Shown here in pieces: positions 58,921 through 64,000 of a stretch of DNA of 64,000 nt. The position numbers were made by a program, and so were the translations under genes. The stretch lies in contig NZ_JADEWT010000017.1 of assembly GCF_015207505.1 (NCBI RefSeq), positions 1 to 64,000 of the forward strand, read 5' to 3'. The notes beneath the pieces are model-generated. The model was given only the letters and a program-made list of their open reading frames with translations. It ran no database searches and was not told where the DNA came from. How positions within the stretch are numbered: the stretch's first letter is position 1; each line of letters opens with the position of its first letter. This DNA is from Tychonema sp. LEGE 06208. Lineage in GTDB: Bacteria > Cyanobacteriota > Cyanobacteriia > Cyanobacteriales > Microcoleaceae.

Positions 58921-60192
58921 ATGGTAAATTACTGGATAGTCGGCGCTGTAGCAATAGCTTCTGTGTTTTGGGCAGAAATCATCCGAGACTTTTATCACGT
59001 CGCGTCTCATTATGTGCCGCCTTTGCAAAAGCTGCACAATTGGCATCACCGCGTTTTCCGCCCGAATTTGACTGCTGTCAGCGAGACAATTTACAAGCAA
59101 GCACACTGGCGTCACGATGTGCCAGAAGCTGCGGCAATGATGGTTTTGGGCTTGTTGCTGTGGGTTTTAGCTTATTTTGTGCTGCCGGCATATCACTGGG
59201 GCGCAGCAGCCGGTTGTATTTATACTTTAGGCTTTTTGTTGAGCGCGATCGCCCGCGCGTGTGGAATCAAAGGTGCAGACGAATTAACCGACATCACCCA
59301 CCAACCGGGAGAATTCCAGACTATCCCCGGCAACTGGTTCGTTAATAAACCTTATCATTGGCGGCACCACTTCGACAATCAAAATGCTTACTATTGCGGT
59401 ACTTTCACCTTAATAGATAAACTTATGGGTACAGCACTTTCTCTTAAAGGCAAAACTGTAGCCGTCACCGGTGCATCGGGAACTTTAGGGCGTTTGCTTC
59501 TCAAACACCTGCACAAAGCTGGTGCAAAAGTTATCGCCCTATCCTCTGGAAATGAGGAAATTACTTTGAATATAGGCGGCGATATTTTGCCTGTAAAAAC
59601 TGTAATTTGGCACGCTGGCGCAGAGGCAGATTTAGCTCAATTGTTAGAAAAAATTGATATTCTCGTGATCAATCACGGGATTAATGTACAGGCTGAAAGA
59701 ACCGGAGAGGCGATCGCCAACTCATACGAAATTAACACTTTTTCCGCGTGGCGGCTGATGGAGCTCTTTTTCTTAACAGTCCGAACTAACGAAAACATCG
59801 CTTGCAAAGAAGTCTGGATCAATACTTCCGAAGCAGAAGTGATTCCCGCTGTCAGTCCACTGTACGAACTCAGCAAACGCGCCTTGGGAGATTTAGTTAC
59901 TTTGCGGAGGCTGGACGCGCCCTGCATCGTTCGCAAGCTGATTTTAGGGCCGTTTAAAAGCAACTTAAACCCGATCGGCATTATGTCTCCCGACTGGGTA
60001 GCGCAGCAAATTGTCAAACAAGCTAAAGCCGATGTCCGCAATATCATTGTCACCATCAATCCTTTAACTTTGATCGTTTTCCCAGTTAAAGAATTTTTTG
60101 TTTCTTTGTATTTCCAAATCTTCAGCCGCAAGGCGATTCCAGAGATTAAAGCAGCCTCGGAAAAATCCAGCGTTGAAGCCAAGATTAATTGA
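58921..60192 (+). CDS. bifunctional sterol desaturase-like/short-chain dehydrogenase fusion
   Basis: 423 residues. The N-terminal part (1-175) is a fatty-acid hydroxylase/sterol desaturase-like membrane domain with His clusters HNWHHR (about 39-44), HWRHD and YHWRHH. The C-terminal part (about 178-410) is an SDR domain with the NAD-binding motif TGASGTLGRLLL and a YELSKRALGD active-site region. The two are in one frame with no break. The fusion is known in cyanobacteria. A lipid or carotenoid-like substrate that is hydroxylated and then oxidised or reduced is inferred. Confidence 0.88.
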   Translation: MVNYWIVGAVAIASVFWAEIIRDFYHVASHYVPPLQKLHNWHHRVFRPNLTAVSETIYKQAHWRHDVPEAAAMMVLGLLLWVLAYFVLPAYHWGAAAGCIYTLGFLLSAIARACGIKGADELTDITHQPGEFQTIPGNWFVNKPYHWRHHFDNQNAYYCGTFTLIDKLMGTALSLKGKTVAVTGASGTLGRLLLKHLHKAGAKVIALSSGNEEITLNIGGDILPVKTVIWHAGAEADLAQLLEKIDILVINHGINVQAERTGEAIANSYEINTFSAWRLMELFFLTVRTNENIACKEVWINTSEAEVIPAVSPLYELSKRALGDLVTLRRLDAPCIVRKLILGPFKSNLNPIGIMSPDWVAQQIVKQAKADVRNIIVTINPLTLIVFPVKEFFVSLYFQIFSRKAIPEIKAASEKSSVEAKIN

Positions 60193-61499: not shown

Positions 61500-62234
61500 T
61501 TAATGCCGATGAGCTGAGGAAATTGCCATTGCCGCGGGCGAGGGCGGCTCGAACCTGTAACCGTAACCCCGAACCGTTTTAATCAACTGCGACCCAGTAG
61601 CATCAATGTGAATCATTTTCTTGCGAATCTGGCCGATATGTACGCTAACAACTTTCTCTTCTTCTGTGTTGCTGCAGTTCCAACCCCAGATTTTTTCAAT
61701 TAGCTGTTGGCGACTCCAAGATTTACCGGGATGACTTGCCAAAAAATACAATATCTTAAATTCCAAGGCTGTTAATTTGATAATTTTGTCGTTTAGTGTT
61801 GCTTCTCGGCGCACTGAATCGATCGCGAATCGATCGAATACAATACGTGATGGAGTGACAATCCTCATGCGTCTCAACACAACTTGGATCCGCATTGCTA
61901 ATTCCTGAAGACCAAATGGTTTGCAGATATAGTCATCAGCACCCGCAGACAGGACTTTAATTTTATCAGCTTCGTCTGTGCGGCTGCTTAGCATGACCAC
62001 AAAAACATTAGTACGGCGCTGCATTTCCTGGCAAAGATGATAGCCTGTAGTATCCGGCAAATTCCAATCTAGAACTACTAGCATTGGCTTAAATTCCTCA
62101 AACAATGCTAAAGCAGTCTCGCCATCTGCTGCCGAATCTACTTGATATTTCTGATTTAAAAAACGATGAACTAGATTGCGAATTGGTGGGTCATCATCCA
62201 CAACGAGAATCTTGAGAGCAGTATTAGTAGTCAT
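61500..62234 (-). CDS. OmpR/PhoB-type DNA-binding response regulator
   Basis: 244 residues from ATG at 62234; a TTG two codons upstream is an unlikely start. Receiver domain (about 1-118) with the acidic triplet DDD and phospho-acceptor Asp (residue 56) in LVVLDWNLPDTTG. The C-terminal winged helix (about 145-240) contains FKILYFLASHPGKSWSRQQLIEKIWGWN, VSVHIGQIRKK and TVRGYGYRF. It would bind DNA when phosphorylated. The gene follows the GHKL protein gene by about 50 bases, probably in one operon; no histidine kinase is adjacent. Confidence 0.92.
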   Translation of the reverse strand: MTTNTALKILVVDDDPPIRNLVHRFLNQKYQVDSAADGETALALFEEFKPMLVVLDWNLPDTTGYHLCQEMQRRTNVFVVMLSSRTDEADKIKVLSAGADDYICKPFGLQELAMRIQVVLRRMRIVTPSRIVFDRFAIDSVRREATLNDKIIKLTALEFKILYFLASHPGKSWSRQQLIEKIWGWNCSNTEEEKVVSVHIGQIRKKMIHIDATGSQLIKTVRGYGYRFEPPSPAAMAISSAHRH

Positions 62235-62283
62235 CACCAAAAAAAATATTTTTCTTATTACTTAAAAGTTGATAAGTACAGAT

Positions 62284-62892
62284 TTAGTCAAGCATACATC
62301 CCAGCTCGCTCCAAATAACAGGCAATTCTTCAAGCAACTTAGCTTGGATGTCAAAAGGCTCTCCCCTATCCCAAATTTTGACTTCTAGACGTTCGTTAAA
62401 TACGGTGATTTCAAGGTCGATCGGAGTTTGAAAGGGCAGATTTTTGTGAGCATGGCGAACAGCATTTGTAAATCCTTCTATCGTAGCAAGTTTGCACTGC
62501 TGCAAAACTGCTTCGGGAATGGGTAGATCCTCTAACTGCTCGACCCACCATAAAACTTTTTTAACACTATTGAGGTCAGTGTTTAGTTGAAGGCAAATTA
62601 TTTTAGTCGGCTGATTATAACTCCGATAAAAGTGGCGATTTTGTCCTTGTTTAAATCCAAAATTAAAACTGCTGAAAAAATTAACTGCCCGCTTCAAATA
62701 ACCAGCTTGATTCGTCTGCTGGGGTGGTATTGTGACGGGATGAAAATTTTTCACAATTAACAGACAGTTGCGACGCTCGGAAGTGCGTGCATAGCTTAGC
62801 TCGTCGGCAATTTTGTTAATAAGTTTTATGCCAATTCCACGGGAGGGGATTTCATTAATATTATTTCTCATGTTGCTATCCTTTCTCATCAT
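62284..62892 (-). CDS. GHKL (anti-sigma/RsbW-like) ATPase with motifs in permuted order
   Basis: 202 residues from 62892; the third ATG (62871) has the best ribosome binding site (AAGGA). The family normally runs N-box, G1-box, then a G-rich region followed by IADELSYxRT and RNCLLIVK at the C-terminus. Here the G-rich end comes first: SRGIGIKLINKIADELSYAR (17-36) and RNCLLIVKNF (41-50). A linker (51-95) follows, then the normal start with KIICLQLNTDLNSV, N-box EGFTNAVRHAHKN (139-151) and G1 WDRGEPFD (174-181). The chain stops after AKLLEELP, just where the G-rich region should begin. The frame is intact. It could be a working circular permutant, or the join of two partial tandem copies. Operon with the response regulator. 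Confidence 0.85.
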   Translation of the reverse strand: MMRKDSNMRNNINEIPSRGIGIKLINKIADELSYARTSERRNCLLIVKNFHPVTIPPQQTNQAGYLKRAVNFFSSFNFGFKQGQNRHFYRSYNQPTKIICLQLNTDLNSVKKVLWWVEQLEDLPIPEAVLQQCKLATIEGFTNAVRHAHKNLPFQTPIDLEITVFNERLEVKIWDRGEPFDIQAKLLEELPVIWSELGCMLD

Positions 62893-63093
62893 TTAATAGG
62901 TGATTTTTAGAGACACAAGAGAGTTGCATTCTGAAGGATTAATTTTGCATGATTTATGCCTGACTTGTCTCCTATGCCGTGCAGTTGTTGTCCTTATCAT
63001 TTTCTCTTGGTTGCTGGGGTATTGACAATCTCAGTTTGCGATCGCTAAACTGATCTAAAATTGACATTGACAAATACAAAAGTAAATTATATA
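62893..63093. other. divergent promoter region
   Basis: 201 bases between divergent genes with no ORF or repeat array. TTGACA at 63061 followed 17-18 bases later by AATTATATAATG suggests a -35/-10 pair for the NACHT gene, but the -10 would nearly touch the ATG at 63094, so the call is weak. Confidence 0.3.
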
Positions 63094-64000
63094 ATGACGA
63101 CCCTCAAAGCCTCTGACGAGGGATTAGTAAAAATTAGGCAAGCTAGAAGAGAAAGGGGATCGACGATAGAAGACCCCAGATGGTTAGTAGAAGCTAGTCA
63201 AATATTAGAACCCGATCGCGCTTGGACAGAGGCCGGGCCCTATGCTGATGGCATCTCGCTGCCAACTTGGAGGCGTTTTTTAGCAGGAAGAGAACCAATT
63301 AAAGCCCATGCTTTTAGGGCTTTCTGCACGGTTTTGCAGTTGGATTGGGAAGAAATTGTCGATCGTCCTCCTTTAGTCTCCCCTTACCAAGGGGGGGTTA
63401 GAGATTTTTGCCAACAGCCTATTGATTCAGTAGTGGAAGAGATACGGCAAAAATGCCACAGCAAAATCCAACAGCTTTACAGCAAAATGCAACTGTTGGA
63501 TATTGCACAGCCCGTTGATGTCAGCACACTTTACGTTGAAGTCAACATTTTGGAGGAAATTACCAGTTGGCAGCCGGGAGAAATTCGTGATTTATTGAGA
63601 GACTTCAACCCAGATGCGGATAATTTTAATCGCTTGGGATTGGGTAAAGTACGCCAGAAACGAGTCCCTGGATTGGATGCGGTGAAATCTCACTCTAAAC
63701 TGATGGTACTCGGCAAACCTGGTTCGGGTAAAACTACTTTTTTGAAACACATTGCCATTCAGTGCGATCGGGCAAAATTTGAAGCAAACAAAATAGCGAT
63801 TTTTATCCCTCTCAAAACCTTTGCTGAAATCCCTAATCTTGATTTATTAGAATATATCAGCGACGAATTTGCCAGTTGCGGAGTTGAGGGGCGATCGCAA
63901 ACTGAATTCGCACTCAGTCAAGGTAGAGGTTTGATTTTATTGGACGGCTTAGATGAAGTGCCAGAATCAAATAGCGATGCAGTCGTCAGACAGATTCGTC
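63094..64000 (+). CDS. NACHT-domain NTPase (3' end outside window)
   Basis: The frame is open from ATG at 63094 to the window end (302 codons). The N-terminal ~90 residues (ASDEGLVKIRQARRERG; PRWLVEASQIL; ISLPTWRRFLAGREPI; FCTVLQLDWEEIVDR) form a helical domain seen in front of many cyanobacterial NACHT proteins. A second helical part follows (about 110-190), then Walker A GKPGSGKTTFL (from residue 207) and Walker B LILLDGLDEVPE (from residue 280). NACHT proteins are STAND NTPases that act as regulators or as antiphage sensors in bacteria. The sensor and any effector or repeat part lie beyond the window, so the role is open. Confidence 0.88.
   Translation, partial: MTTLKASDEGLVKIRQARRERGSTIEDPRWLVEASQILEPDRAWTEAGPYADGISLPTWRRFLAGREPIKAHAFRAFCTVLQLDWEEIVDRPPLVSPYQGGVRDFCQQPIDSVVEEIRQKCHSKIQQLYSKMQLLDIAQPVDVSTLYVEVNILEEITSWQPGEIRDLLRDFNPDADNFNRLGLGKVRQKRVPGLDAVKSHSKLMVLGKPGSGKTTFLKHIAIQCDRAKFEANKIAIFIPLKTFAEIPNLDLLEYISDEFASCGVEGRSQTEFALSQGRGLILLDGLDEVPESNSDAVVRQIR

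Follow-up and report, generated by a model that had tools for sequence, protein, structure and literature searches.

Probable circular permutation of an RsbW/SpoIIAB-type GHKL ATPase in Tychonema and other cyanobacteria

RsbW of B. subtilis (PDB 6m36 and 6m37) and SpoIIAB (1th8, 1tid and 1l0o) are GHKL serine kinases and anti-sigma factors. RsbW/SpoIIAB proteins are dimers, and the lid between G1 and G2 in SpoIIAB-like proteins senses the nucleotide state. The proteins described here share with them the N-box, G1 and G2 motifs and the secondary-structure elements, and RsbW/SpoIIAB come top by fold, but G2 stands ahead of the N-box and G1, the lid is severed and a linker of about 45 residues is present. 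The nearest experimentally studied cyanobacterial analogue found is Slr1861 of Synechocystis, described as a SpoIIAB homologue that is a kinase of the anti-sigma antagonist Ssr1600 and an anti-SigC factor (PMC12329169). The normal order of its motifs is presumed from that description. The gene for Slr1861 belongs to the icfG operon, whereas the permuted genes have a response regulator or other genes as neighbours. HmpU-V-W of Nostoc punctiforme is also an Rsb-like partner switch of a filamentous cyanobacterium, but its output is the STAS protein HmpV (PMC6495340). Permutation by duplication runs via a partly truncated or duplicated intermediate, as for saposin/swaposin and DNA methyltransferases (PMC3320104). 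The present case would follow the same route, with a C-N-C protein as the intermediate, but differs in that the domain is a GHKL ATPase and the new termini lie inside the ATP lid. No permuted GHKL or RsbW protein was found described in the accessible portions of the open-access literature; the permuted cases found there concern methylases, a GTPase, KEN/HEPN, Cache or GFP domains, the PP2C-proteasome relation and gene order.

The window is a stretch of 64,000 nucleotides from Tychonema sp. LEGE 06208, and the gene under study lies close to its end (Table 1). Its ORF is open throughout. The true start is probably Met8 and not the first codon of the ORF, because an SD-like sequence lies just upstream of Met8 and because, when loose patterns of 4-5 bases are counted, the start codon nearest to the C half has an SD-like sequence in 43 of 57 distinct genes, whereas a more distant upstream start has one in only 4 of 36.

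Table 1. Positions in the window of the permuted gene, its parts and the adjacent response regulator gene
Feature	Positions	Strand	Remark
Permuted GHKL (RsbW/SpoIIAB-like) ORF, 202 aa	62284-62892	-	Probable CDS from Met8, 62284-62871
SD-like AAAGGA, 7 nt 5' of the Met8 ATG	62879-62884	-	Pattern match only
C half at the N-terminus, residues 16-50: G2 region (G19, G21), helix, ADELSY strand, NCLLIVK strand	62743-62847	-	
Linker, residues 51-96, joining the old C-terminus to the old N-terminus; one predicted helix at 64-74 (low pLDDT)	62605-62742	-	
N half, residues 97-187: beta1, alpha1, N-box helix, G1 strands	62332-62604	-	
N-box, residues 139-149 (EGFTNAVRHAH)	62446-62478	-	Invariant columns in 30 sequences
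G1 box, residues 174-181 (WDRGEPFD)	62350-62373	-	D175, G177 and F180 invariant in 30 sequences
C-terminal tail, residues 188-202, with the proximal part of the severed ATP lid; G2 would come at the point where this chain stops	62287-62331	-	
OmpR-type response regulator (Response_reg + Trans_reg_C), downstream, same strand, 43 bp from the permuted gene	61500-62240	-	

The PF13581 (HATPase_c_2) profile matches the window ORF in two stretches with 66.5 bits, as compared with a curated cut-off of 27.4 (whole-protein E 2.9e-18). The best stretch, residues 105-186, covers positions 3-85 of the 127 in the profile, and the chain stops at residue 202 with no space after this stretch for the remaining profile. 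Half-domain HMMs trained solely on normal-order homologues (i-E at Z=1e6) place the C half, comprising G2 and the two final strands, at residues 21-50 (51.8 bits, i-E 2.4e-12), and the N half, with the N-box and G1, at residues 100-186 (127.8 bits, i-E 7.1e-36). These scores, obtained with normal-order models, indicate that the C-then-N order of the window protein is far beyond chance. With the same type of HMM, the C half precedes the N half in all 56 distinct permuted proteins, the window's included, and none of these permuted proteins has the normal N-box - G1 - lid - G2 order in one unbroken domain. The sequence-only reading had inferred a GHKL ATPase with a permuted motif order, an unbroken frame and a chain that ends where the glycine-rich region is normally found; the half-domain HMMs, the open ORF and the tail bear this out. 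A sequence-profile search of the PDB at E 0.01 gives RsbW as the only match (6m36_A, profile 132-187, E 4.6e-12). The RsbW equivalog profiles NF003144 (39.7 bits, cut-off 145) and TIGR01924 (33 bits, cut-off 155.05) are both missed, and the normal-order proteins L003 and L004 likewise fall below these cut-offs. A search of the own genome at E <= 1 for the missing halves beside the gene returned solely the ORF itself at the locus. Profile annotation is blind to the order of the halves, since the tested permuted proteins pass the PF13581 cut-off as members.

An alignment of 30 permuted sequences (A1) was used to examine conservation. Its invariant positions include G19, G21, D30, N42, E139, N143, D175, G177 and F180, among them the residues to which the sequence-only reading had pointed, and within the N-box they are E139, F141, N143, A144, V145, H147, A148 and H149. 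The N-box E/N, G1 DxG and G2 GxG patterns are retained in 55, 56 and 55 of the 56 distinct permuted proteins and in 51, 51 and 32 of the 51 normal-order cores. The permuted genes were divided into group A, to which the window gene belongs, and group B. The dN/dS values for groups A and B are 0.25 and 0.16 for the C half, 0.68 and 0.49 for the linker, and 0.30 and 0.39 for the N half (NG86, ratio of mean dN to mean dS, from 171 and 28 pairs respectively, which are not independent). These ratios indicate that both halves are on average under purifying selection, that the linker is less constrained, and that the detached C half is on average constrained at least as much as the N half. Close pairs are noisy and some point the opposite way: dN and dS of the C half are 0.092 and 0.136 between the window and L008, and the whole-gene dN and dS between L011 and L012 are 0.028 and 0.008.

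The structure of the window protein was predicted as a monomer by AlphaFold2 on A1. The model has a mean pLDDT of 70.9 and a pTM of 0.67, with a confident core: the ten-residue pLDDT means are 86-95 for residues 21-50 and 82-95 for residues 91-180, and pLDDT is below 50 for residues 1-18, 55-91 and 191-202. The predicted elements are H20-28, E31-36, E42-49, E97-104, H107-118, H127-148, E157-164 and E168-175, and this series in the model is the RsbW order rotated. The best PDB match of the model by Foldseek is RsbW (6m37_C, E 0.012, TMt 0.61, 95 columns), and no match reaches E 0.001 or better. A weak score is expected when a sequential aligner is applied to a permuted chain, but it is also no proof of permutation. 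That the two halves dock with each other in a single chain is inferred from the pLDDT, pTM and secondary structure of the model, and domain swapping is not excluded.

Both orders occur within one protein family. Sorted by order, the frames in the loci collected are 108 C-N, 55 N-C, 2 C-N-C (one protein found twice) and 4 C-only, and among the distinct cores 56 are permuted and 51 have the normal order. The window's genome contains a second permuted gene, with 45% identity over query 6-189. Matches spanning both halves are present in the window's genus for group B in 27 of 29 genomes and for group A in 19 of 29; two genomes (G012 and G015) contain neither at E <= 1e-10. In the other genomes of the window's family such a match is found in 4 of 32. 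These counts were made by hand on query coverage, groups A and B were separated by identity (>=54% and <=47% respectively), and the order was verified for those matches that were fetched as loci. Outside the family, permuted genes are found in four genomes of two families (G079, G126, G143 and G297) and a C-N-C gene in one genome of a third family (G151), all with their order verified, among the matches listed for a draw of 388 genomes of the order. A draw of 388 genomes of the class, many of the same order, gives 4 genomes with relatives at E <= 1e-42, all of the window's family. In both draws at most 8 candidates of each genome were scored, and diverged permuted forms could escape the 1e-42 cut-off. 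Searches of the families around G151 (14 genomes), G297 (20) and G079 (8) gave no additional permuted or C-N-C gene.

Permuted or C-N-C genes are present in 36 of 80 named loci (L065-L100), including the complete genome of Microcoleus vaginatus HSN003. Of these 36 loci, 20 are titled Microcoleus, and the others Lyngbya, Oscillatoriales, Richelia and more; locus titles and genome groups are sometimes discordant, since L077, titled Microcoleus vaginatus, is the gene of G143, a genome of another family. M. vaginatus HSN003 has four permuted copies, two of them in tandem at L157:5085-6603 (= L073:4094-5612). Two extra matches in G189, as well as long but stop-containing matches in G156 and G270, proved on checking the order to be normal-order genes. 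Carriage by phages or plasmids was considered and rejected: 50 pattern matches in viral contigs include none confirmed as a relative, and plasmids gave no full relative, only one partial match that covers the N half alone (Nostoc, query 99-186).

One protein, from Oscillatoria sp. SIO1A7 (L099:5004-5690), contains a C half, a linker, an N half and a second C half in a single frame. As far as can be judged from its sequence, it is a normal domain with an additional G2 half in front of it, the partly truncated intermediate that would be expected from permutation by duplication, although it is a single case (n = 1). Its first C half scores 66.8 bits with the permuted model and 61.7 with the normal one, whereas its second C half scores 58.5 bits with the normal model and 51.2 with the permuted one. 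Because the two C halves prefer different models, an origin of this protein from two different paralogues is possible. Its AlphaFold2 model has a normal domain at residues 93-228, in which 10 of 14 pLDDT blocks are at least 90 and the lowest is 76; the first C half is less confident (blocks of 69-87 for residues 11-40). By Foldseek, the top 7 rows for this model are SpoIIAB/RsbW matches with 136-142 aligned columns, TMt values of 0.71-0.87 and a best E of 3.8e-8. The contrast with the model of the permuted protein is the pattern that a sequential aligner would give on a permuted chain. The two models, however, do not form a clean pair, because that of the C-N-C protein was built on a mixed alignment (A2) that includes normal-order rows.

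The linkers of the permuted proteins are 36-52 residues long. A linker profile was made from 48 other linkers and tested on 9 distant sequences, with 500 shuffles of each. In 6 of the 9, the C-N-C protein included, the linker scores above all 500 shuffles, but several of the nine are sisters, some of them among these six. The fit is weaker in L029 (5 of 500 shuffles as good), and the linkers of L151 (116 of 500) and L035 (164 of 500) are dissimilar. Derivation of the linker from the N-terminal extensions of normal-order proteins was considered and rejected, because the profile recognises none of 30 distinct extensions of at least 25 residues (none with 3 or fewer of 300 shuffles as good; best 8 of 300). 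In a core tree of 108 rows and 126 columns the permuted label requires two changes, and the permuted rows are united in 0% of 200 bootstrap trees. When one clade is forced, the log-likelihood is 5.29 lower for the permuted proteins with the C-N-C protein (p-AU 0.343) and 8.85 lower for the permuted proteins alone (p-AU 0.241). A single origin of the permuted order is thus neither rejected nor shown by the tree, but it is favoured, because the permuted proteins have the linker and the cut site in common.

Remnants of a lost C-terminal copy were sought in 43 C-terminal tails, with 200 shuffles of each, and only 1 of the 43 beats all shuffles, which is not convincing. The numbers of shuffles as good are 0 of 200 for L150, 3 for L077, 4 for L084 and 7 for L027; the other tails are weaker and 8 are unscored. 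No intact free half is present among the loci collected, where the 4 C-only frames have just 30-42 codons. A 33-codon frame that resembles a decayed C half is found downstream of the permuted gene in L020 and L044 (2840-2938 in both). Short stretches that resemble a broken C half also directly precede a normal-order gene in two cases: the stretch of Hormoscilla (L156:1779-2345, = L101) is in frame, that of genome G217 (L155:1791-1916) in another frame. These two upstream stretches are possibly decayed C-N-C forms, but the resemblance is only suggestive.

The permuted gene had been placed by the sequence-only reading in an operon with a response regulator. The two genes are indeed adjacent on the same strand. 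However, of the 14 group A loci with long flanks, only 6 have a full-length response regulator; another 6 have it split or shortened, and 2 (L067 and L074) lack it, whereas the permuted gene keeps an open frame in each of the 14. It is unlikely that a dedicated two-gene unit is the whole story, because the response regulator is often broken and the permuted gene always open; by this comparison, the response regulator is unnecessary for persistence of the permuted gene. Orthologues of the response regulator include those of L066, L069, L070, L071, L073 and L100, and its parts are about 4.1 kb apart in L070 and about 1.5 kb apart in L073, as if by insertion. In the 14 loci, a divergent NACHT gene is found upstream in 7, response regulator sequence downstream in 12, and GGACT and glyoxalase-like genes in 8; L073, L075 and L076 represent a second locus with different neighbours. 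In the window, the divergent gene from 63061-63999 onward (L160:7062-9539) encodes a NACHT NTPase domain together with an HTH-like region that scores below the Pfam cut-off. On the far side of this gene, past the end of the window and on the strand of the permuted gene, lie genes for a zf-HC2 (anti-sigma-like) protein and an ECF sigma factor (L160:9760-11390), relatives of both of which are present in several group A loci. The 423-aa ORF at 58921-60192 presumably has, as judged by eye, a hydroxylase/desaturase-type N-terminal part and a short-chain-dehydrogenase-like C-terminal part.

No STAS, PP2C/phosphatase or sigma gene lies directly beside the permuted gene, the neighbour of which is the response regulator gene. 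Of the 8 STAS matches in the window's genome, the window's contig has none. The normal-order genes L003 and L004 have two of them within 2 kb, and another is on the contig of the group B gene, about 12 kb from it. Several short normal-order HATPase_c_2 proteins are also present in this genome. L004 is divergent to a response regulator gene with an RsbU-like region, a domain recognised by eye.

The window protein is probably a true circularly permuted form of a single-domain GHKL (Bergerat-fold) ATPase of the RsbW/SpoIIAB type, formed most likely via a C-N-C partial duplication. The order, motif retention, conservation, selection and the one C-N-C relative are sequence evidence, and the confident core and RsbW as the best PDB match are predicted. 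The sequence-only reading had proposed such a permutant, provided that it folds, made by a tandem duplication of which the outer halves were lost, and this proposal is supported by the orthologues and paralogues of the same order, the purifying selection, the confident core and the C-N-C protein. It had offered a fused remnant as the alternative. Such a remnant or pseudogene would have arisen by deletion between two tandem RsbW-like genes and would be carried without function. A deletion between tandem copies would produce the observed order, and the decayed extra C fragment near the gene in L020 and L044, the tandem pair in M. vaginatus HSN003 and the high dN/dS of a few close pairs are compatible with it. 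For the permuted gene this alternative is nevertheless rejected as very improbable, because there are two conserved orthologous groups with open frames, the ATP-site residues are invariant and mean dN/dS is well below 1 in both halves. An assembly or frameshift artefact, which would have refuted the permutation, could be suspected in a genome assembled in 232 contigs, but the same order is repeated in independent assemblies, including the single-contig genomes G037 and G038, and assembly error is ruled out with hardly any doubt left.

The two remaining alternatives accept the protein as real. Its C half may dock on the N half of another chain, so that the functional unit is intermolecular, in a domain-swapped dimer or a higher oligomer. 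The flexible linker is long, RsbW and SpoIIAB are dimeric, and a single-chain prediction cannot separate the swapped from the closed form; but the monomer prediction already has a confident core and a linker of such length should permit closure in one chain, and swapping is considered quite unlikely. It is also conceivable, though on balance unlikely, that separate halves arose by fission and were fused again, or that the order has several origins, in which case the Oscillatoria protein would be a later independent fusion. The C-N-C sequence is the only one of its kind and its C halves may come from different paralogues, and the tree unites the permuted rows in no bootstrap replicate and merely fails to reject one clade. 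Against this stand the absence of intact free halves among the loci collected and the resemblance of the C-N-C linker to those of the permuted proteins.

According to the circular permutation preferred here, a C half would have been duplicated in front of a whole domain to give the C-N-C form, and subsequent loss of the C-terminal copy would have left the C-N order. The flexible linker would tie the old C-terminus to the old N-terminus, and the new termini would be located within the ATP lid, after G1 and before G2 of the normal order. The fold is inferred to close within one chain and to bind ATP with an open lid in two pieces. By analogy with normal-order relatives, the permuted protein may have a partner-switching role, in which it binds or phosphorylates a STAS antagonist and/or sequesters a sigma factor; its ATP binding, kinase activity and partners are all inferred. 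A further proposal, which is only tentative, is that the family formed through a surviving C-N-C intermediate and that a lid in two pieces abolishes or rewires the nucleotide-gated switching seen in RsbW/SpoIIAB, so that the protein would be an anti-sigma/STAS binder less dependent on ATP/ADP. An altered ATP/ADP switch is the most interesting testable consequence, because the new termini would lie in the nucleotide-sensing lid. It is judged uncommon for a signalling ATPase domain to be circularly permuted in nature while both orders and a candidate intermediate survive within a single bacterial order. The family would provide a natural experiment on whether binding, kinase activity and partner switching need an uninterrupted GHKL ATP lid, and the C-N-C protein one on which C half, the first or the second, is used.
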